Part shown: positions 30,956-39,717 of the stretch, piece by piece
Layout: every line of letters starts with the position of its first letter
How positions within the stretch are numbered: the first letter of the stretch is position 1
DNA from: Lacibacter luteus
GTDB taxonomy: Bacteria > Bacteroidota > Bacteroidia > Chitinophagales > Chitinophagaceae
Length of the DNA stretch: 64,000 nucleotides
NCBI RefSeq assembly: GCF_004118265.1
Contig: NZ_SDHW01000001.1
Span: 1,798,001 to 1,862,000 of the forward strand
Reading direction: 5' to 3'
Made by a program: the position numbers and the translations under genes
Notes under the pieces: generated by a model
Database searches by the model: none
What the model saw: only the letters and a program-made list of their open reading frames with translations
What the model was told of the DNA's origin: nothing

Positions 30956-31801
30956 TCAGGAGAAAAGCGGTTTTATGATCTGTTGAAAAATTAGTGACGC
31001 AAATTGAGCTGTGTACTGTTTTTCATTCCATTGCTTCACCCAACGTAATCCGCTCATTGCATTTGTAAGAAATATTTCATCTGCCTCAGCTAACTCTTCC
31101 GGAGCAAATGCGCCTTCCTTAATGCTGAATCCGTTTTGAGGTAACGATGTTAGTAAATGCGTACGCATAACTCCGGCAATACAACCTTCAGTAAGTGCAG
31201 GTGTATAAATGGTTTTATTTTTTACAAAGAAAATATTGGCAATAGTGGCATCGCTCACTCTGTTAAATTGATTTAATACAATGCACTCATTCCACTTTTG
31301 AGCCTTCGCATATTGTGCTGCCAAAGCATACAAAAGATAGTTGCTTGTTTTGCAGTTCGAAATTTCATCGCAGGCTTTGCGGCCACTTTCAAACACACCA
31401 ATATCCAGCCCATTCTTATTTATGTTTATTTCCTTTTGTTCGAGGGGCCAGCATTGCAACAGGTAACGAAAACCAGAAGTTGGCTTTTCCCAAATTCCTC
31501 CTTCGCCTTTAAAAATCATAATACGCACCCTTGCTGCATCAAAACAATTATTCCGTTGGGCTAACTGAAGCAATGCTTTTTTCAGATATTCTTTTGTAAA
31601 GTGAGTTGGCTGGTTAAAAAACAGAATTGGCAGCGAACGGGTAAGTCGCTGCCAATGCGAATCAAACAAAGGCATTTCGCCTTTATATAGCCTGATGGTC
31701 TCAAACAAACCTTCGCCATATCGGAATGCCCGGTTATCGGGACGAATCAGCAATTCATCTGCAGCATACAGTTTACCATCAAGGTTATACATTGTTCCCA
31801 T
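30956..31801 (-). CDS. Aminotransferase class IV (PabC/branched-chain family)
   Basis: 281 residues. RPDNRAFRYGEGLFETIRLYKG at the N-terminus and ISNCKTSNYLLYALAAQYAK with the PLP Lys (about residue 155) are fold type IV signatures; NRVSDATIANIFFVKNKTIYTPALTEGCIAGVMR contains the phosphate-binding turn. The family includes aminodeoxychorismate lyase and D-amino-acid or branched-chain aminotransferases; which one is not readable. A terminator (31814-31846) covers the GTG at 31831, so the ATG at 31801 is the better start. How transcription enters this gene is unclear. Confidence 0.82.
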   Translation of the reverse strand: MGTMYNLDGKLYAADELLIRPDNRAFRYGEGLFETIRLYKGEMPLFDSHWQRLTRSLPILFFNQPTHFTKEYLKKALLQLAQRNNCFDAARVRIMIFKGEGGIWEKPTSGFRYLLQCWPLEQKEININKNGLDIGVFESGRKACDEISNCKTSNYLLYALAAQYAKAQKWNECIVLNQFNRVSDATIANIFFVKNKTIYTPALTEGCIAGVMRTHLLTSLPQNGFSIKEGAFAPEELAEADEIFLTNAMSGLRWVKQWNEKQYTAQFASLIFQQIIKPLFS

Positions 31802-31813
31802 TGCAGGCGAATA

Positions 31814-31846
31814 TAAAAAAAGAGGCGACACTTTGCAGTATCGCCT
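31814..31846 (-). terminator. Rho-independent terminator after response regulator A
   Basis: On the minus strand AGGCGATACT, loop GCAA, AGTGTCGCCT (one T-G wobble) followed by CTTTTTTTAT. It is 27 bases past the regulator stop and only 13 bases before the aminotransferase ATG, so it also fixes that start. Confidence 0.85.
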
Positions 31847-31872
31847 ATACGGTTGGTTTTGGTTTATTCGTT

Positions 31873-32565
31873 TTAACCTTCAATAATATTGTGTTTTACA
31901 GCATAGAGGATAAGCCCCGCTGTTGATCTTGCTCCGATCTTCGATTTGAGTTTATCACGAATGGCTTCAACCGTACGTGGACTCAGATCAACAATATCGG
32001 CAATTTCTTTTGTGCTTTTTTCTTCGCACATTAAACGAAGGATTGTAATTTCTTTTTCATTCAGCTTTACATCGTGGCCCATCACCGAATCGCCCTGGCG
32101 TTTCATTTTTAAACCATCGATCAATGCTTTATTGGTAAGTGTGTTGAAGAAATACTCCTGTTCATGACAGGTTTTGATTGCTTCATAAATCACTTCACTA
32201 TCCGAATTTTTGGTGAGGTAAGAATTTGCTCCTAACTCCATTAAACGAGTGATCATGGTATGCTCATCGTGCATGGTAAGCATAATGATCTTAATATCGG
32301 GATAGAGTTTCTTTACTTCGGGGAGTGTAGCAATACCATCCATGATGGGCATTTGCACATCAAGCAGGATAACATCAGGCTGAATCGACTTGAGCATGTT
32401 CAATAAATGCATGCCATTGTCTGCTTCGAATACTACCTGTATATCCTTTTTCATACCCAATGCAGTTTTTACACCTGCACGGTATAAAACATGGTCATCA
32501 GTAATGGCTACTTTGATAATGTCGGTCGTGGAGTCAGTTGGTTTTACGGTTTTCATTGTGTACAT
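31873..32565 (-). CDS. NarL/LuxR-type response regulator A
   Basis: 230 residues. Receiver: the acidic pair in VAITDDHVLYRAGVK, phospho-acceptor Asp in VILLDVQMPIMDG, Thr in IIMLTMHDE and Lys in NSYLTKNSD. DNA-binding domain (about 165-228): LNEKEITILRLMCEEKSTKEIADIVDLSPRTVEAIRDKLKSKIG. It activates or represses promoters on phosphorylation. No kinase gene is adjacent on this strand. It is paralogous to regulators B and C in the same cluster and is followed by a terminator. The ACTTATTCA element at 32588 lies in its leader. Confidence 0.93.
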   Translation of the reverse strand: MYTMKTVKPTDSTTDIIKVAITDDHVLYRAGVKTALGMKKDIQVVFEADNGMHLLNMLKSIQPDVILLDVQMPIMDGIATLPEVKKLYPDIKIIMLTMHDEHTMITRLMELGANSYLTKNSDSEVIYEAIKTCHEQEYFFNTLTNKALIDGLKMKRQGDSVMGHDVKLNEKEITILRLMCEEKSTKEIADIVDLSPRTVEAIRDKLKSKIGARSTAGLILYAVKHNIIEG

Positions 32566-32672
32566 AGGATATGTTGTTTAACGTAGTACTTATTCAGTAT
32601 GCAAGATGGCGCTTTTTTGCGTCATTTTTACTGGTAGTAGTACCTGACTTTAAAATTGTGGATTTTACGGTT

Positions 32673-33332
32673 TTACTCAATTAACCGGTTACGCATTCCG
32701 TAAACAATTAAGCCCGCAATCGTCTTAGCCCCCACTTTATTTTTCATGTTTTGCCTTATGGTTTCTATTGTTCTGGGGCTCAAAAACACAGTTTTAGATA
32801 TTTCCTCCGTGGTTTTATCTTCTGCCAGTAGTTTGAGGATTTGAAGTTCTTTTTCAGAGAATTTGGTTGTGTTGGGATAAAACTGTTTAACTGTTTTTTT
32901 GTAGTTCAGTTTCAACAACACAGCCTGGTTAACAAGCTCGTTGAAGTAGAAATCCTCATTCATGCAGGTTAAAATAGCATCGTAGATCTCGTTAGGATCG
33001 GTAGTTTTTGTAAGATAAGCATTGGCCCCCATCTCCATCATCTTGCTCACCATTTGCTGATCGTCGTACATACTCAACACCACAATTTTAACGCCTTCAT
33101 ACTCCTTTCTAATCAACGGAAGAGCGTTAATGCCATCCAGCTCAGGCATTCGAATGTCCATTAAAAGAATGTCGGGCTTTTTAATTGTGAGTTTGTGCAT
33201 CAGATCTTTTCCGTCTTCTGCTTCCCATATTAATTTAAGGTGGGGTCTGCCGCCAAGTGCCATTTTTATGCCGTCACGAAAGATTTTGTGATCATCGGCA
33301 ATAGCGAATTTAATGCTAGTATCTACAGACAT
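32673..33332 (-). CDS. NarL/LuxR-type response regulator B
   Basis: 219 residues. Receiver motifs: FAIADDHKIFRDGIK, ILLMDIRMPELDG with the phospho-acceptor Asp, IVVLSMYDD, NAYLTKTTD. LuxR-type domain: FSEKELQILKLLAEDKTTEEISKTVFLSPRTIETIRQNMKNKVG. The PRTIE and KT..EI residues are those of the recognition region. It lies upstream of regulator A with 107 bases between, and a near-consensus promoter (33360-33389) drives it. The cognate kinase is probably the one at 34979, but with three regulators and one kinase the pairing is uncertain. Confidence 0.93.
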   Translation of the reverse strand: MSVDTSIKFAIADDHKIFRDGIKMALGGRPHLKLIWEAEDGKDLMHKLTIKKPDILLMDIRMPELDGINALPLIRKEYEGVKIVVLSMYDDQQMVSKMMEMGANAYLTKTTDPNEIYDAILTCMNEDFYFNELVNQAVLLKLNYKKTVKQFYPNTTKFSEKELQILKLLAEDKTTEEISKTVFLSPRTIETIRQNMKNKVGAKTIAGLIVYGMRNRLIE

Positions 33333-33359
33333 GGGATATTTGGGTTTTAGAGGTTAGTG

Positions 33360-33389
33360 CAAAATAAACTACTTAATTCACACTTCAAA
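33360..33389 (-). promoter_or_regulatory. Near-consensus promoter for response regulator B
   Basis: On the minus strand TTTG (33389-33386), exactly 19 bases, then TATTTTG (33366-33360), one base shorter than TAnnTTTG. The start codon is 28 bases beyond. Confidence 0.55.
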
Positions 33390-33672
33390 GTAATTTGCTT
33401 ACCAAAATAGATTAATTCCTTGTATGTTAAAGCGTTCACCCCATTTACCAGTGCTTTTTATACGCTTTCAATTTGCTTGCTTGAGCCAATTAAATTAGGT
33501 ACTTTAGAGTGTTGAAAGATTAGATCAAAGGAATAGTTGACCTTAACTCCATTCATTCGAGAGGGCTAAATAAGTGTTTCTACTTATTCACATTTTTTAC
33601 ACATAGTAGTCCTACTTCGTCATTTTTCGCAAATTCTACTCGTTAATTTACAGTTTTTGAAATAGTAATTTT

Positions 33673-33690
33673 ACGTATTTTAATACGTAG
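33673..33690. promoter_or_regulatory. 18-bp perfect palindrome TACGTATT-TT-AATACGTA
   Basis: Eight-base perfect arms about a two-base centre, in the middle of the divergent region between regulator B and the 121-residue protein gene. NarL-family regulators bind inverted TAC-starting heptamers (known consensus TACYNMT), and this site has TAC at both outer ends; G at the fourth place departs from that consensus. A -7-like TAGATTTG overlaps its right edge (33689-33696). Function as a regulator site is inference. Confidence 0.5.
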
Positions 33691-33855
33691 ATTTGCCTTA
33701 GCTATTTTACTTATTTCACAAAATTTAAGGCATAAAGCACTTTATTTCAAATAATTAAGTGCAGCGTAACAACTTATTCACAATGCTAAACTATTGTTCG
33801 TCGGCGAGTTTTTTTAAAAATTAGTAGTTCAAACTTAACTTCTAAACCTACAACT

Positions 33856-34221
33856 ATGCAACACGAATTACTTCAAAAAACCCAAAACGTATCCGAAATT
33901 GGAAGACACATTGGCTTGGAAGCTGGCGAAGAAATGGCAAAACGTTTTTTTGACAAGCACCCTGAGCAAGCATTTGTAAACATCCTTGGAAAGGATTTAT
34001 TTCTGAAAGCATTATCACAACCAGGCTGCGAAGGCATCGCAATTGTTCCCGGTTACAACGCTGCTGGTGTTCGCCAAGCAATCATTGTAGCTGTTGATGC
34101 TAACAAACAACCAATTTACCAATATGCTGTAGTTTCTGCTACTGGTGAAATCACTATGGAAGAAGCGCTTGTTGGTGATGATGGCACTATTGATAACAGT
34201 GGCTGGGGCTCTGGCAAGTAA
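33856..34221 (+). CDS. Hypothetical 121-residue protein, signalling-cluster associated
   Basis: No family recognised. The sequence is soluble, with no signal peptide or membrane segment. An N-terminal helical part (VSEIGRHIGLEAGEEMAKRFFDKHP) is followed by a compact alpha/beta-looking part (FVNILGKDLFLKALSQPGCEGIAIVPGYNAAG, QAIIVAVDANKQPIYQYAVVS), and the C-terminus is a flexible Gly/Asp/Ser tail ending DNSGWGSGK. There is one cysteine (GCEG). The gene is bounded upstream by a 520-base repeat-bearing regulatory region and downstream by its own terminator, so it looks like a strongly and independently expressed single gene. Placement between regulators and the kinase suggests a role as a signal, partner or target of the system (inference only). 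Confidence 0.75.
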   Translation: MQHELLQKTQNVSEIGRHIGLEAGEEMAKRFFDKHPEQAFVNILGKDLFLKALSQPGCEGIAIVPGYNAAGVRQAIIVAVDANKQPIYQYAVVSATGEITMEEALVGDDGTIDNSGWGSGK

Positions 34222-34237
34222 GTAGTATTAAGTAATT

Positions 34238-34268
34238 TTTGACTACTAATAGGAAGTTCCTATATTTG
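34238..34268 (+). promoter_or_regulatory. Consensus promoter for the membrane protein-kinase-regulator genes
   Basis: TTTG at 34238-34241, exactly 19 bases, then TATATTTG at 34261-34268: a full consensus match. It overlaps the left arm of the terminator of the preceding gene. Transcription should start near 34273, about 57 bases before the TTG start at 34330. Confidence 0.7.
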
Positions 34269-34298
34269 ATTTAAACCATCAGATATAGGAACTTTTTT
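34254..34298 (+). terminator. Rho-independent terminator after the 121-residue protein gene
   Basis: Perfect 12-base arms aagttcctatat / atataggaactt with a 17-base loop, then a T run. The -7 box of the next promoter lies across the left arm and loop. Confidence 0.75.
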
Positions 34299-34329
34299 AT
34301 CTATAAACGATTTACGGGGATTAACTCTG

Positions 34330-34965
34330 TTGCTCCCGATTATTGCTTTTTTTCTTAATAAAGCCAACAGACAATCACCATTCAAAAAGTTTGTCTTATC
34401 ATTTTTCTTAGTTAAGCTTATTAGCGAATTACTGAATAATTATTTTTTTTACCGGAACTTCAGTATTTATGAAATAAACGGTATTACCTTCTCCTACATA
34501 AAAATGGCCATTGTTTGCCTTGTTTTCAAAAGTATATCAACTACATCGTTATTAAGAAAGGGAGTGCTTATTGGGTTTATTATTTATGTTTTTACGTTAA
34601 GTATATACTTCTTTTTCTTTGCAGACGGGAACTATTATGACAAAACACCGTCATCATTTCAAGGTGTGTTAGTTATTGTACTATCAATTCTGTTCTTTTA
34701 CGAACAAATAAAAAAACCCGACACTTTATTCATTTACGCCCTACCGGAATTTTGGTATGTAACAGCTGTGTTTATACATGCTGCCGGTACTTTCTTTATA
34801 TACATATTCGCTGCCTTTTGGTTGCAAAACAGTGCAAATGAAAATGATTATATGAATATTTTTGGGTCTTTATCGATATTGCATAATTTACTCATTGCCT
34901 TTGCAACGTTCAAACAATATAAAGACCCTTTGCTATCAACGACATCAAAACCCATTACCGCATAA
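34330..34965 (+). CDS. Hypothetical multi-pass membrane protein preceding the kinase
   Basis: 211 residues, about six hydrophobic segments (LPIIAFFLNK, FVLSFFLVKLISELL, VLIGFIIYVFTLSIYFFFF, GVLVIVLSILFFYEQI, EFWYVTAVFIHAAGTFFIYIFAAFWL, LSILHNLLIAFATF). No enzyme motif is seen. Conserved-looking polar residues within the membrane (Glu in LISELLNNYFF, His in VFIHAAG, Glu-Phe-Trp-Tyr) suggest a sensory or ligand-binding membrane domain. No ATG is available: the frame opens at 34270 and the best start is TTG 34330 with GGGGA upstream (34316-34320). The kinase begins 13 bases after the stop, so the two may form a split sensor (inference). Confidence 0.7.
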   Translation: MLPIIAFFLNKANRQSPFKKFVLSFFLVKLISELLNNYFFYRNFSIYEINGITFSYIKMAIVCLVFKSISTTSLLRKGVLIGFIIYVFTLSIYFFFFADGNYYDKTPSSFQGVLVIVLSILFFYEQIKKPDTLFIYALPEFWYVTAVFIHAAGTFFIYIFAAFWLQNSANENDYMNIFGSLSILHNLLIAFATFKQYKDPLLSTTSKPITA

Positions 34966-34978
34966 CTGCTTATAACCC

Positions 34979-35803
34979 ATGTTTTTTTTACAAGCCACAA
35001 CTTCCACTAACGTAACCTATGTGGTGTACTTCGGTACATTCGGGATGCTTCTGTTGGCTGTTGGCCTCATTGTTTTCATTGTTATTCATCAGCGAAAGGT
35101 TATTTACTTTCAGCTACGGATGAAAAAAATGCAGGAGGAGCAACAACAAATGATGCTTCAGGCATCTATTGAAAGTCAGGAAGAAGAACGCCAACGTATT
35201 GCAGCCGATTTACACGACGATGCCGGACCATTACTTGCTACAGTACGTCTTTATTTGAATGAAAATCTAATTCACCAGGATCAGGCAACACAATTGCAAA
35301 GTATCTATAATGCCAAGCAGATTATTGATGATACGATTCAGTTGATACGTAACATGTCACATAGCCTTATTCCTCCAACGTTGAAGAACTTTGGTTTGGA
35401 AAGTGCTGTAAATGACATGTTTCAAAAAATAAACGGAAGCGGATCCATTAGCGCAAGTGCACGTTTTCATGATTATAAGCGACGTTTAAAACTTGATTAC
35501 GAACTGTCAATTTTCCGTGTGTTGCAGGAGTTAGTAAATAATACCATTAAACACAGTCATTCCAGTTTCATCCATTTAACTCAAAATAAAACGGATCAGT
35601 ATATATATATTCGTATCCATCACGATGGAGAAGGACTTACTCAAACAGAGTACGAAAAGTTAAGAGATACGCCCCAGGGAATGGGATTGAAAAATATATT
35701 CAGCAGGGTAAAAATCCTTAACTCCAAAATCCTTTTTGAAAAAGACCCCTCTAATACATACTATAAGGTTACTATTGAGATTCCAATTGAGGCAATGTTG
35801 TAA
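34979..35803 (+). CDS. Sensor histidine kinase, NarX-type (HisKA_3)
   Basis: 274 residues, short. A single membrane helix (residues about 16-38) leads to a coiled-coil linker rich in Gln/Glu/Met (MKKMQEEQQQMMLQASIESQEEE), then the HisKA_3 dimerisation domain with the phospho-acceptor His in IAADLHDDAGPLLATVR (about residue 79), and an ATPase domain with N-box VLQELVNNTIKHSHS and G2 box GMGLKNIFSRV; no D-box of classical type is obvious. There is no periplasmic sensor domain of its own, so sensing must come from a partner, likely the preceding membrane protein. Regulator C follows 35 bases later. Confidence 0.92.
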   Translation: MFFLQATTSTNVTYVVYFGTFGMLLLAVGLIVFIVIHQRKVIYFQLRMKKMQEEQQQMMLQASIESQEEERQRIAADLHDDAGPLLATVRLYLNENLIHQDQATQLQSIYNAKQIIDDTIQLIRNMSHSLIPPTLKNFGLESAVNDMFQKINGSGSISASARFHDYKRRLKLDYELSIFRVLQELVNNTIKHSHSSFIHLTQNKTDQYIYIRIHHDGEGLTQTEYEKLRDTPQGMGLKNIFSRVKILNSKILFEKDPSNTYYKVTIEIPIEAML

Positions 35804-35838
35804 CTTGAGAAAACAGTAACTTTACAATTGTTGATAAT

Positions 35839-36489
35839 ATGAGCCAGATAAAAGTAGCTATCGCAGACGATCATCAAATCTTCCGGAAAGGCGTAATTCT
35901 TTCCCTTCGTGCGTATACTAATTTAAAGTTTGTACTTGAAGCTGAAAATGGCGACGAGTTGCTTGCAGGTTTAGCTGAAGCAGAACCTGATGTAATTCTT
36001 ATGGATTTACGGATGCCCGGCAAGGATGGAATTGAAACAACCAAAGCGGTAAACAAGCTTTATCCCAATATGCATGTATTGGTGTTAACGATGTATGAAG
36101 ACGAACGTTTTGTAACACATCTGATGGAAAACGGAGCGAATGGATATTTACTTAAAAGCTCCGACCCTTCGGAGATCAAAAAAGCTATTCTGGAAGTGTA
36201 TACAAAAGGATATTATCTCAACAACTTTGTAAATCGCATTCTCCTCAAAAAATCACACAACAAGGTTAAATCAATTCCAACACTTAACAGCGAAATTCAA
36301 ATCTCTGATAAAGAGAAACAGGTTATTCGTCTTTTATGTATGGAATACACAGCTCAGGAAATTGCCAAAGAAATGGAAATCAGTGCACGTACTGTTGAGG
36401 CAATTAAAGATCGCCTGATGGAACGTTTTGGTGTAAAGAACTCTGTTGGCCTGGTTTTCTTTGCAATGAAAAACTCATTGATCGATTAA
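35839..36489 (+). CDS. NarL/LuxR-type response regulator C
   Basis: 216 residues. Receiver: VAIADDHQIFRKGVI, VILMDLRMPGKDG with the phospho-acceptor Asp, VLVLTMYEDER, NGYLLKSSD. LuxR domain: ISDKEKQVIRLLCMEYTAQEIAKEMEISARTVEAIKDRLMERFG. It is the genetic partner of the kinase directly upstream. Overall layout and the AIADDH..F..G start resemble regulators A and B, indicating expansion by duplication. Its end overlaps the convergent next gene by four bases, and no terminator is visible. Confidence 0.93.
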   Translation: MSQIKVAIADDHQIFRKGVILSLRAYTNLKFVLEAENGDELLAGLAEAEPDVILMDLRMPGKDGIETTKAVNKLYPNMHVLVLTMYEDERFVTHLMENGANGYLLKSSDPSEIKKAILEVYTKGYYLNNFVNRILLKKSHNKVKSIPTLNSEIQISDKEKQVIRLLCMEYTAQEIAKEMEISARTVEAIKDRLMERFGVKNSVGLVFFAMKNSLID

Positions 36490-37235
36490 GCTTTTAGCAA
36501 TTCTGTTTTAATGTAGCTGTATCGAAGTGCTTCATTTAGGAACCTTCGCATAAATGTTGCAAGTTGTGGATTTATAGTTGCAAGTAGTTCCAAATCGGAC
36601 ATGCCCATGTTATAAGCCGCTTCAATCGCCGCAGCATCATTTCCTAACTCAATAATTGTATTTTCATCTCCAGATAATCTGTCCTCCGGCAAATCTTTAA
36701 AATCGTCGAGCAGTAAAATAGGGCGTGCAAGGGAATACCAGTATGGTAAAAATTGATTTATCCACTCATCGGTTAAATCAATATCTACTAACGTAAATAA
36801 AAAGCTGTCCGATCTTGCTAAAGCTTTATGTTTAGTTTCGAATGTAAAGAACGATGCCTGCTTACCGGCAAACACAGCAAACAAATCTGCGGCCAACTTT
36901 GGTTGTTTTATTTTATCCTTCAGTAAAGTTTTACAGCCAACCAGAAAATTTTCAAACGATATTTCTTCATTCTCATAGAGCTTCAACAGGTGAAAGCCTT
37001 GCTCCATTAAAGACACATGTTCATCCTGCAGTAATAAATCCAATGATACTCCGCATTTATGTACCAGGTCAAAGATCATTGGAATCGTAAGAAATCCAAA
37101 ACCAGACGAAATATAAATGCGTTTATTTTTCCAAAAAAGGTTGTTGTCGGGAACCTTTCTTTCGTTTGCGAAGTAATTAGCAATTACGCTATTTATTCCC
37201 AGCTCCTGCTCCAGCTTTCGAGACGTTATGACCAT
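36486..37235 (-). CDS. Hypothetical helical protein in the coaBC operon
   Basis: 249 residues from the ATG at 37235, which overlaps the previous gene by 47 bases. No family is recognised with confidence. The sequence looks wholly helical, without signal peptide or clear membrane span. An acidic cluster near residue 177 (LLLDDFKDLPEDRLSGDENT) loosely recalls the Asp-rich metal sites of class I isoprenoid enzymes, but no second Asp-rich motif is seen, so this is only a resemblance. It is last in an overlapping unit with coaBC, the porD-like gene and a DUF4296 lipoprotein gene. The start is uncertain; shorter forms are possible. Confidence 0.6.
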   Translation of the reverse strand: MVITSRKLEQELGINSVIANYFANERKVPDNNLFWKNKRIYISSGFGFLTIPMIFDLVHKCGVSLDLLLQDEHVSLMEQGFHLLKLYENEEISFENFLVGCKTLLKDKIKQPKLAADLFAVFAGKQASFFTFETKHKALARSDSFLFTLVDIDLTDEWINQFLPYWYSLARPILLLDDFKDLPEDRLSGDENTIIELGNDAAAIEAAYNMGMSDLELLATINPQLATFMRRFLNEALRYSYIKTELLKA

Positions 37236-37605
37236 TGGGTTTAGGTTTTGATGTATCGGCAGACAGACGTTCACTTTTACGAGAAAGTTGTGCAGATACA
37301 GAGTCTGTAACAACTTTCAGCAGATCGGGCCGGCTTAAATAATAATTATAGCTAACCATAAATTGATTTTTGGTTACGCCATGCATTTCAAAAACTTTTA
37401 AAAAGTAGACAGCATTTGCATCGGGAATTTTAACGCCGGTATCTTTAAACGACTGCTCTGTACTTAAGGCATCCGCAATAACAATATCTTTTAAAACAGC
37501 CTGAAACTTTTGCTCACCTAAAACATTGGAGGGCACTTTCCCCTTACCCGAACACGCAAATAAAAAAACAGCTACACATAAAATAACAACTTGCTTCAAC
37601 CTCAT
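37189..37605 (-). CDS. DUF4296 lipoprotein
   Basis: 138 residues. Lipoprotein signal VVILCVAVFLFACSGKG with the lipidated Cys near residue 18. The DUF4296 domain follows: FQAVLKDIVIADALSTEQSF and DANAVYFLKVFEMHGVTKNQFMVSYNYYLSRPDLL. The C-terminal 30 residues (RLSADTSKPKPNGHNVSKAG) are low-complexity and probably flexible. The domain is of unknown function and frequent in Bacteroidetes outer-envelope proteins. Its ATG overlaps the stop of the porD-like gene (ATGA), and its end overlaps the next gene by 47 bases. Confidence 0.85.
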   Translation of the reverse strand: MRLKQVVILCVAVFLFACSGKGKVPSNVLGEQKFQAVLKDIVIADALSTEQSFKDTGVKIPDANAVYFLKVFEMHGVTKNQFMVSYNYYLSRPDLLKVVTDSVSAQLSRKSERLSADTSKPKPNGHNVSKAGAGAGNK

Positions 37606-38525
37606 TTCAACTCCTGTTTGTATTTGTTTGAATTTGTAATATCAAGCCTGCTCAATATTTCAACAACTCTCGTTTTATCCTGCTGCGGTGCCTTACGAAA
37701 AAGGTTGATTAACTCATCCGCTTTGCCGAGCATAAAAAACTGGACAACCATCAGGTTGGGAGTTTCCCTATTCAAGTTATCAAGATATAAGAGCGCATTG
37801 AGTACTTCCAATCTCGCAGCAGCTTCATCTTCATAAAGTTTATCAAACCCTTTGCGATAGTAAGTATAATAAACATCATGAATGGTGGCGTACCTGTTAT
37901 TAATTAAATTCTCAGTTAACCAATAACGATTACGATTATTACTTTCGAACGACTTCCAACCTGATATTTTACTTGCTTCGGGAGCATTGTTTACAATGTT
38001 CAACGCTTTTTGAAAATAAGGATCTCCACCTCTGGTAGAAAAAGAAGTATAATCGAACCCGATAATGATATATGCATAATATGCCATTACTGCAGATAAG
38101 TTCGAAGCTAATGGATCAGCTCCTGAAATTCTGTTATCATTAAATTCAACTGGCTGCGATTCAACATATTTAAAGTCGAGACTTGCATCTTTAAAATTAA
38201 TTAACGGCGACACATAAGAACTTGCATAAACGGGACGTGCTGCCTGTATGGTGATGCTTGCATTATAAACATTTGGCTCAACCATCGATTCCAGGTTAAT
38301 TAAAAACTGGCAATTAATTTTCTCAGCAGACTTAAAATTATCCTGCGACCATTTACGGTTATTCAAAAAATTTGTAAGCACAGTTTCCAGTGTACGAAAA
38401 ATTTTGCGATCAACAGTAGAAGGCATTTGATTATCTATAACACGAACCCTTGCATTCAGTTCTTGTGCCTGCAAACAAAAAACAAAGCAAGTGCAAATAA
38501 TTGCAGCAAGCAATTTCTTAAACAT
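37602..38525 (-). CDS. DUF4835 / PorD-like type IX secretion-associated protein
   Basis: 307 residues. Signal peptide MFKKLLAAIICTCFVFCLQAQ, then ELNARVRVIDNQMPSTVDRKIFRTLETVLTNFLNNRKW, INCQFLINLESM, and DPLASNLSAVMAYYAYIIIGFDYTSFSTRGGDPYFQKALNIVNNA, the pattern of DUF4835 proteins, which are associated with the type IX system (PorD). A periplasmic or outer-membrane location is expected. Its start overlaps the coaBC stop by eight bases, so expression is coupled to coenzyme A synthesis genes, an arrangement also known in related genomes. ATG 38525 directly precedes the signal peptide. Confidence 0.85.
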   Translation of the reverse strand: MFKKLLAAIICTCFVFCLQAQELNARVRVIDNQMPSTVDRKIFRTLETVLTNFLNNRKWSQDNFKSAEKINCQFLINLESMVEPNVYNASITIQAARPVYASSYVSPLINFKDASLDFKYVESQPVEFNDNRISGADPLASNLSAVMAYYAYIIIGFDYTSFSTRGGDPYFQKALNIVNNAPEASKISGWKSFESNNRNRYWLTENLINNRYATIHDVYYTYYRKGFDKLYEDEAAARLEVLNALLYLDNLNRETPNLMVVQFFMLGKADELINLFRKAPQQDKTRVVEILSRLDITNSNKYKQELK

Positions 38526-39717
38526 GTATAAATTGTTTAATTGTATCAACAATATCTTTAGCTACTTCTGTTTTACTCTTTACAGAAAACGCATATTCCT
38601 GTTTATTCTTATCGAAAATTGTGATTTTATTCGTGTCTTTACCAAACCCAGCACCCTGATCGTTTAATGAATTGAGAACAATCATATCTGCGTTTTTAGA
38701 CTCAAGCTTATTTAGAGCATACTCTTTTTCGTTTTGTGTTTCTAATGCAAAGCCCACAAGCAACTGCTCTTTGTTTTTTATTGAGCCTAAATATGCCAGG
38801 ATATCTTTTGTACGTTTAAGCTCCACCTGCAAGTCTGTATCGCTCTTCTTTATTTTTTCTTTCTCAATTGTTACAGGCGTATAATCTGCCACGGCTGCAG
38901 ACATTATTGCTATTTGGCAAGATGGGAACAAACTCGCACACGCATTAAACATCTCCTCTGCACTTGTAACCTTTGTAACATTTATACCTGAAGATTTCAC
39001 TATTTGCGATGATGGCCCCAGCACAAGTTCCACTCTTGCACCTCTTTTGGCCAATTCCTCAGCTAAAGCTACCCCCATCTTACCACTTGAGTTGTTGCCG
39101 ATAAAACGAACCGGATCAATAGCTTCATAAGTTGGACCGGCAGTTATTAAAACCGTCTTACCGGAGAATTCATTTTGTTGAAAAAAAAACTGCTGAATAG
39201 AATTAAGTATTGCATCGGGCTCTGCCATTCGTCCTTCTCCTACCAGGCCACTTGCAAGTTCGCCGGCAGCAACAGGTATAACAATGTTTCCGAATGATTT
39301 AAGAGACGCTATGTTGTTTTTCGTTGCAGGGTGCTTCCACATATCTTCATCCATTGCAGGGGCAACCATAACCGGACAAGTAGCAGAAAGGTATACCGCA
39401 AGCAATAAATTGTCGCACATACCTGTAGCCATTTTTGCTAAGGTATTGCAGCTTAGAGGAGCTATCAGCATCAAATCAGCCCACCTGCCTAATTCAACAT
39501 GATTTGTCCAGCTATTTTCCTCAAACAAGTCCACCACAACTTTGTTTTTAGAGAGTGTTGAAAGTACTAATGGTGAAACAAAATCTTTAGCTGCGGGAGT
39601 AAGCATCACTTTTACATCAGCACCTTCCTTTATCAAAAGCCGAACTAATAAAATTGATTTATACGCTGCAATGCTTCCACTAATACCTAATACTATTTTC
39701 TTGCCTGCTAAACTCAT
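38518..39717 (-). CDS. coaBC: Bifunctional phosphopantothenoylcysteine decarboxylase / phosphopantothenate-cysteine ligase
   Basis: 399 residues. CoaC half: KIVLGISGSIAAYKSILLVRLL (FMN site), WTNHVELGRWADLMLIAPLSCNTLAKMATG with the active His, and APAMDEDMWKHPAT. CoaB half from about 185: VLITAGPTYEAIDPVRFIGNNSSGKMG and MSAAVADYTPVTIEKEKIKK with the catalytic Lys. It makes 4'-phosphopantetheine from phosphopantothenate, Cys and CTP. The motif usually holding the CoaC catalytic Cys reads ELASGLVGEGRMAEP, with Ser instead of Cys; the substitution may be common in the phylum. First gene of an overlapping operon. Confidence 0.92.
   Translation of the reverse strand: MSLAGKKIVLGISGSIAAYKSILLVRLLIKEGADVKVMLTPAAKDFVSPLVLSTLSKNKVVVDLFEENSWTNHVELGRWADLMLIAPLSCNTLAKMATGMCDNLLLAVYLSATCPVMVAPAMDEDMWKHPATKNNIASLKSFGNIVIPVAAGELASGLVGEGRMAEPDAILNSIQQFFFQQNEFSGKTVLITAGPTYEAIDPVRFIGNNSSGKMGVALAEELAKRGARVELVLGPSSQIVKSSGINVTKVTSAEEMFNACASLFPSCQIAIMSAAVADYTPVTIEKEKIKKSDTDLQVELKRTKDILAYLGSIKNKEQLLVGFALETQNEKEYALNKLESKNADMIVLNSLNDQGAGFGKDTNKITIFDKNKQEYAFSVKSKTEVAKDIVDTIKQFIHV

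Follow-up and report, generated by a model that had tools for sequence, protein, structure and literature searches.

A conserved two-component cassette of Bacteroidota with a separate seven-helix membrane protein and a dedicated small protein

In ComP, the multi-helix membrane part is fused to the histidine kinase, and in DesK the membrane helices also belong to the kinase polypeptide. UhpC is a separate, transporter-like membrane sensor for a kinase that works with a NarL-type regulator, and UhpB has a multi-helix membrane part of its own. LiaFSR and VraTSR combine a separate membrane protein with a short kinase that lacks a sensor domain and with a NarL-type regulator. Here we describe a signalling island in Lacibacter luteus (contig NZ_SDHW01000001.1, positions 1,798,001 to 1,862,000; this whole stretch of 64,000 nucleotides is called the window). 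Its core is a cassette that encodes, in order, a small protein of 121 residues (P121; P for the family), a membrane protein (MemP), a short HisKA_3-type histidine kinase (HK) and a NarL-type response regulator (RR_C); two further regulators, RR_A and RR_B, are present at the window locus. All six open reading frames (ORFs), which had been listed in an original prediction made from the bare sequence, are present at the same coordinates and on the same strands (Table 1).

The cassette shares with ComQXPA the order of small protein, variable multi-helix part, HisKA_3-type kinase and NarL-type regulator, the combination of a variable receptor part with a conserved kinase and regulator, and a tryptophan near the end of the small protein (56/57 close sequences, not the rule in distant cassettes), and its layout recalls ComX-ComP-ComA with a split receptor. 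It differs in that the membrane part is a separate gene, whereas ComP is one polypeptide, in that P121 has a folded domain of ~95 residues and distant members have Cys-containing tails, and in that no ComQ-type domain was found among ten window proteins (30956-38552), farther genes not having been looked at. A census of comQXPA (PMC4008528) found no comQXPA-like loci outside Firmicutes; the cassette described here is in Bacteroidota.

Likeness to UhpBCA and MctSR lies in the NCBIfam matches, which are best with MctS and UhpB for HK (below cut-offs) and with MctR for RR_A and RR_B. We know of no small P-like protein in these systems, and MemP (211 residues, seven helices) matches no curated transporter model. 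To LiaFSR and VraTSR the cassette is tied by its separate membrane protein, short sensorless kinase and NarL-type regulator, and by the similarity of HK to LiaS and VraS, but MemP is modelled with seven helices and matches no curated LiaF model, and a fourth, conserved small protein is present. DesK-DesR, finally, has a related HisKA_3-type kinase, a NarL-type regulator and membrane helices as sensor; these helices are separate in the cassette, and to our knowledge DesK-DesR has no P-like protein.

Searches of open-access full texts (preprints and most subscription journals lie outside this coverage) retrieved no title or abstract describing the gene set, and the earlier remark that it is not recognised as a described system holds for the Pfam, NCBIfam and open-access papers searched. 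We rate the cassette as a two-component system extended by two dedicated parts, of which one is a separate seven-helix partner, and as spread through the phylum. The window genome has sensorless short kinases, and the sequence of such a kinase gives no clue to its input. Across the phylum, the cassette links such kinases with a seven-helix partner encoded apart and with a dedicated small protein, the four genes keeping a fixed order, so that the receptor, the kinase, the regulator and a candidate ligand or modulator can be tested as one set. A receptor gene apart from the kinase gene would make the swapping of receptors simple to study.

Recurrence of the four-gene cassette

P121-MemP-HK-RR_C is a conserved cassette found across Bacteroidota. 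Among 59 genomes, that of L. luteus and those of relatives, 17 have P121 (14 of these, L. luteus included, belong to Lacibacter), and in wide stretches around all 16 other P121 genes the four genes stand in this order. A P121 profile (A1) matched at E<=0.001 in 110 of 294 family genomes, with E<1e-20 in 66 of them; 40 of the 66 were fetched, 9 were already covered and 17 were left out, which together with the 16 gives 56 close loci. These were found by P121 similarity alone, and HK lies downstream in 56, a MemP profile match in 55 and a response regulator after HK in 54.

The same arrangement holds at 21 distant loci, made up of a paralogue in L069 and 20 of the weak P121 matches, drawn largely from the better-scoring end. 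HK was downstream in 20/21, a regulator was found in 19/21 and a membrane ORF in 19/21 (12 by profile, 7 as a hydrophobic ORF in the gap), and wherever MemP was scored, P lies <=50 bp from it (12/12 loci). Since the distant loci were chosen by P similarity only, the linkage of kinase and regulator validates both the cassette and the weak matches. The original prediction had made its case depend on conserved linkage in related genomes; the neighbourhood survey finds such linkage, with HK in 56/56 close and 20/21 distant loci, and this synteny excludes chance as the source of the island. P121 is thus a full member of the cassette and not a bystander, a point absent from the original prediction.

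Beyond the family, a broad P profile (A5) matched in 27 of 296 phylum-wide genomes, in several families and beyond the class. At 20 loci fetched from its 39 matches, all outside Chitinophagaceae, P and a multi-helix ORF were found in 20, HK in 19 (L216 with only 14 bits) and a regulator in 17. A broad MemP profile (A6), with ten candidates scored per genome, matched in at least 62 of the 296. At 30 loci from this search, which partly overlap those found by P, HK was directly downstream in 27 (two at 13-15 bits) and P was present by profile in 19; of the remaining 11, 9 have at the P position an ORF of 98-249 residues that did not score. The loci without HK by our rule were L250, whose kinase follows two further MemP genes (L225), as well as L265 and L266, which have overlapping kinase ORFs.

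The window genome itself has at least six MemP places, each of them a cassette (the window, L069, L140, L185, L184 and L280), a recurrence that the original prediction did not include. In four of them P was assigned with the profile, to which three of the four also contribute rows. In L184 and L280 it was assigned from position and tail, the ORF at its place having 158 residues and the ending CPPPAC... in L184 and 159 residues and the ending PCPPLC... in L280. Some cassettes are enlarged: two P-MemP pairs accompany a single kinase in L215, and L216 and L225 each combine one P with three MemP genes and a single kinase, hinting at combinatorial receptors. The P-like ORF of L222 is 250 residues long with two matched stretches. 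Second, paralogous kinase-regulator pairs stand beside or inside L057, L058, L061, L065 and L070. Two loci from records labelled Williamsia sp. and Beijerinckiaceae (L170, L171) carry a Chitinophagaceae-type cassette and look like mislabelled metagenome bins.

Cassette proteins and their divergence

The AlphaFold2 model of MemP has seven helices (predicted local distance difference test, pLDDT, 89.2; predicted template modelling score, pTM, 0.85), which replaces the six-helix topology given originally. No MemP member scored over a cut-off against curated models (17 members in Pfam, 23 in NCBIfam), LiaF or transporter included; we take these databases to contain a LiaF model. Solved structures yielded no sequence relative of MemP up to E 1, and Foldseek with the model gave no match at E<=0.001. 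G-protein-coupled receptors (GPCRs) and other seven-helix proteins rank first in the model search. By VIA, the values for LYCHOS (Z 11.7, root-mean-square deviation (rmsd) 4.5, 195 aligned), Ste2 (Z 10.7, rmsd 4.1, 195 aligned) and proteorhodopsin (Z 9.8, rmsd 4.3, 185 aligned) lie below the caution level of ~13 for helical bundles. Because the best Foldseek E is 0.23 and such Z values are common among helical bundles, we claim no GPCR- or rhodopsin-like membership for MemP.

No MemP-kinase fusion was found in the loci surveyed, and no MemP profile match lies within an open frame longer than 304 residues (ten candidates per genome, 296 genomes), so the split between membrane part and kinase is general. 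The original idea of a detached membrane partner in a split sensor is strengthened by this and by the conserved unit that MemP forms with HK. The TTG start of MemP is doubtful. The sister species L. cauensis has CTT at this codon, neither species has an ATG or GTG between the upstream stop and the first MemP helix, and both have ATA at 34303, at the place of an ATG in relatives; the true start is probably upstream, at this ATA.

MemP evolves far faster than the other cassette parts, although it is not always the fastest, and this too was absent from the original prediction. Between the window and L. cauensis, identity is 99-100% for the kinase and regulators and 96% for P121, but 62% for MemP. 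Nonsynonymous divergence (dN) is 0.004 for RR_A, 0.012 for RR_B, 0.010 for RR_C, 0.005 for HK and 0.022 for P121, compared with 0.262 for MemP and 0.039-0.155 for seven flanking genes. Along the DNA, identity drops at ~34325 and returns to 100% at 34950, immediately ahead of HK; elsewhere in the island, only the region between RR_B and P121 is low in identity. With these sharp edges and saturated synonymous sites (proportion of synonymous differences, pS, 0.88), the pattern looks like replacement of a MemP allele or very local diversification. Across the window and 38 loci (those of the 56 close loci that are complete and have a MemP of at least 180 residues), mean pairwise identity is 28% for MemP, 46% for the P domain, 71% for HK, 77% for RR_C and 79% for RR_B.

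In the same set, distances of the P domain and MemP co-vary (partial Mantel r 0.39, p 0.0005, given HK, RR_B and RR_C); the comparison values are 0.26 for P-HK, 0.18 for MemP-HK and -0.04 for MemP-RR_C. With flanking-gene controls, in the window and 13 loci, the P-MemP correlation is 0.51 (p 0.0015), and control pairs with the neighbour P275 give 0.12 (P-P275), -0.15 (MemP-P275) and -0.10 (P275-DUF4296).

P121 itself matches no curated Pfam or NCBIfam model over cut-off. Weak hits, among them DdfA (E 0.064, 2/24 members), DUF4938 (E 0.0036, 2/24) and DNA_pol3_a_NII (E 0.0023, 1/15), were set aside because each was confined to one or two members. No solved structure searched is a sequence relative of P (best E 0.32), and the P121 model, of moderate quality (pLDDT 67) with a disordered tail, gave no significant match in a fold search (best VIA Z 2.8, rmsd 4.2, 53 aligned). 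The tails of P121 homologues, cut here as the 8-28 residues past the folded part, vary in length and sequence. W117 of P121 is nevertheless invariant in 15/15 and in 24/24 aligned rows, and 56 of the 57 distinct tails of close homologues contain Trp (the exception is L123); it makes up 90/985 tail residues vs 8/6465 domain residues. Tails of L124, L126, L128, L131, L132 and L138 contain a CPPxC motif and Trp together. In distant cassettes P mostly ends in a CPxxC...SPLN-like tail and Trp is not the rule, so the Trp tail looks like a form of the window branch, and the tail is not hypervariable across the whole family.

HK matches HisKA_3 (31.7 bits, cut-off 24) and HATPase_c (32.0 bits, cut-off 26.4) in Pfam. 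It has a single N-terminal hydrophobic stretch, with no sensor candidate in the sequence between this and the kinase core, in keeping with the earlier description of a kinase without a sensor domain. Its best NCBIfam matches, all below cut-off, are MctS (E 7.8e-34), UhpB (1e-22) and LiaS (NF052531, 1.6e-18); among solved structures, VraS and DesK are closest to it.

All three regulators match Response_reg and GerE over cut-off in Pfam and retain the acidic pair, phospho-acceptor Asp, Thr/Ser and Lys of the receiver. They are 42.9% (A-B), 39.4% (A-C) and 39.8% (B-C) identical. In a tree of 52 regulators (midpoint-rooted for drawing), A, B and C are each a single group, with A sister to B (100/99), and A, B and C together join the cassette regulator of L150 (95/90). 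They are therefore, as first proposed, duplicates with intact phosphorylation residues. Given this grouping, RR_A and RR_B look like a lineage-specific addition to what is elsewhere a one-regulator cassette. A divergent regulator lies within 1.2 kb of P121 in 49/56 close loci, and orthologues of RR_B and RR_A were found in 11/16 and 9/16 wide stretches of relatives, respectively (two contigs are shorter than 7 kb).

Signal path and competing explanations

We consider it fairly probable that the island is an expanded copy of the four-part cassette in which a signal runs from P121 through MemP and HK to RR_C, with RR_A and RR_B joined to it. P121 would be the input partner of MemP and would contact it, on whichever side of the membrane it may lie. 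MemP would act as a seven-helix receptor or gate and supply the sensing function that HK lacks, and its state would pass to HK through the membrane by contact between the two. HK would then autophosphorylate and phosphorylate RR_C, and RR_A and RR_B, added in this lineage, would perhaps tap the same kinase. This chain is the least demanding one because HK has no sensor, MemP was not found fused to a kinase and almost always precedes HK, and P and MemP co-vary.

Several findings weigh against this chain. At one close locus (L180) the MemP ORF has 489 residues, with the kinase still separate, and in the pair G002 and G006 the dN of MemP is 0.021, like that of ordinary neighbours, so that a fast MemP is not universal. 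Co-variation is also seen between RR_B and RR_C, which are not known to touch (r 0.39 given HK), while MemP-HK reaches only 0.18. DUF4296, a fast neighbour, correlates with both P (r 0.25, p 0.013) and MemP (r 0.24, p 0.017), so that part of the P-MemP signal is general and both may be fast markers. One distant locus, L146, has a P-like ORF without a kinase. L215 and L216 have no regulator in the fetched stretch, and the 18-bit regulator match of L220 lies in a 684-residue ORF and was not counted as a regulator. Finally, the window genome has 26 HisKA_3 matches, and another kinase could serve RR_A and RR_B.

This last point leads to the possibility that RR_A and RR_B are mere neighbours, with HK acting on RR_C alone and A and B serving another kinase or acting unphosphorylated. 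Cassettes elsewhere carry a single regulator, placed after the kinase, and in the window A and B are on the opposite strand; moreover, L057, L058 and L061 have other kinase-regulator pairs beside P121, and the fetched stretches of L057, L061 and L063 contain no orthologue of RR_A or RR_B. Set against this are the common lineage of A, B and C with every phosphorylation residue kept and the divergent regulator that accompanies P121 in most close loci. We lean mildly towards the shared kinase of the branched pathway suggested originally: ancestry and linkage favour phosphotransfer from HK to RR_A and RR_B too, and separate service of the two is a possibility of somewhat under even weight.

An envelope-stress system of the LiaFSR/VraTSR kind would assign the parts differently, with MemP restraining an intramembrane-sensing HK and P121 serving as a cytosolic modulator or main output gene and not as a ligand. 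The resemblance of HK to LiaS, though below cut-off, and its kinship with VraS and DesK suit this explanation, as do the hairpin and promoter-like site that part P121 from MemP (Table 1), as one would expect if P121 were expressed more strongly than the other genes. LiaFSR likewise has a membrane protein that acts as negative regulator next to its core kinase and regulator (PMC3543457). However, HK scores better with MctS and UhpB than with LiaS, MemP is modelled with seven helices and has no curated match, LiaF included, and the P-MemP co-variation together with the spacing of <=50 bp in the 12 distant loci favours a stoichiometric partner over an output gene. We regard such a system as unlikely here.

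The ComQXPA-like features suggest instead peptide cell-to-cell signalling, in which the P121 tail would be cut off and exported, and the resulting Trp peptide would be read by MemP as the hypervariable receptor half of a ComP-like kinase. Tails that vary in length and sequence yet keep and concentrate Trp fit this idea, as does the position of MemP as the most variable cassette part; the ComQXPA census (PMC4008528) likewise describes a variable, Trp-ended ComX and a variable ComP membrane part beside a conserved kinase part. On the other hand, inspection by eye revealed no export signal in P121, and the ten window proteins scanned (30956-38552) include no protease, exporter or ComQ-like gene, none having been searched for beyond them. 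Distant P tails are fairly constant, of the CPxxC...SPLN type, unlike a pherotype, and P121 is 96% identical where MemP is only 62% identical. A secreted P121-derived ligand is for these reasons rather improbable. About as improbable, in our estimate, is the wider idea of a Bacteroidota peptide signalling family in which P proteins would be precursors with a released tail and MemP a stand-alone receptor docking on a generic short kinase, its alleles exchanged among strains as pherotypes are, while kinase and regulators stay fixed. If this were so, parallel copies in one genome would be separate channels, and if P carries a peptide message at all, the phylum would gain a family of peptide cell-to-cell signalling, for which the searches made returned no example in this phylum.

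DNA signals and neighbouring genes

The coordinates of the six genes and of the DNA signals around P121 and MemP are collected in Table 1.

Table 1. Genes and DNA signals of the island (positions in the window).
Feature	Position	Strand	Description	Basis
RR_A	31873..32565	-	NarL-type response regulator, sister of RR_B	ORF, Pfam, tree, relatives' loci
RR_B	32673..33332	-	NarL-type response regulator, divergent from P121	ORF, Pfam
TTATTCACA element	33584..33592	+	DnaA-box-like, upstream of P121	motif search
Second TTATTCACA element	33774..33782	+	190 bp from the first	motif search
P121	33856..34221	+	small protein; domain ~residues 16-108 and variable C-terminal tail with Trp117	ORF, profile
TTG-N19-TATATTTG site	34239..34268	+	promoter-like, 5' of MemP	pattern match
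Hairpin and T-run	34251..34298	+	strong, terminator- or attenuator-like, between P121 and MemP	z -5.1
MemP	34330..34965	+	seven-helix membrane protein; likely receptor or gate	ORF, AlphaFold2 model, profile
HK	34979..35803	+	short HisKA_3-type histidine kinase	ORF, Pfam, NCBIfam, nearest solved structures
RR_C	35839..36489	+	NarL-type response regulator, cassette regulator	ORF, Pfam, tree

The pattern TTG-N19-TATATTTG, which we take to be the Bacteroidota promoter consensus, has 11 matches in the window, on both strands, and is thus not rare; the site upstream of MemP differs from that of L. cauensis by one spacer base. The hairpin is identical in L. cauensis. A terminator between P121 and MemP was considered as a general feature and rejected, as 9/55 gaps satisfy the hairpin-plus-T criterion, and we claim it for the window and its sister species only. 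An Rfam scan of 31500-37500 gave no match.

Upstream of P121, the motif TTATNCACA is 30-fold enriched (52 in 34.0 kb vs 33 in 653 kb of the rest of the loci) and occurs in 37/56 close loci; no match was found in the 500 bp upstream of 21 weak-P genes. By the DnaA-box consensus, TTATTCACA and TTATNCACA are DnaA-box-like. In the window alone, the six TTATNCACA matches, two of them in the 523-bp RR_B-P121 intergenic region (33333-33855), are not above chance (4.1 expected). The window's spacing of ~190 bp between two elements recurs in 6 of 13 genus loci; in 5 others a single element stands at one or the other place, and both are missing from L061 and L063. Some of the elements form inverted repeats, putative sites that could bind a dimeric regulator or paired DnaA.

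A replication origin upstream of P121, which TTATNCACA might suggest, is ruled out by GC skew and dnaA distances. In one complete genome (20 samples of 20 kb), the change of the skew from negative to positive values falls between 4.75 and 5.0 Mb, whereas the locus is at 0.92 Mb, where the skew is positive to either side. The distance from locus to dnaA is 265-299 kb in four genus genomes, 16 kb in G017 and 0.23-2.7 Mb in five others.

On the downstream side, a protein of ~247-275 residues is encoded at 36486-37313; its gene overlaps a DUF4296 gene, it has no Pfam match, and it adjoins RR_C in 13/13 other genus loci.

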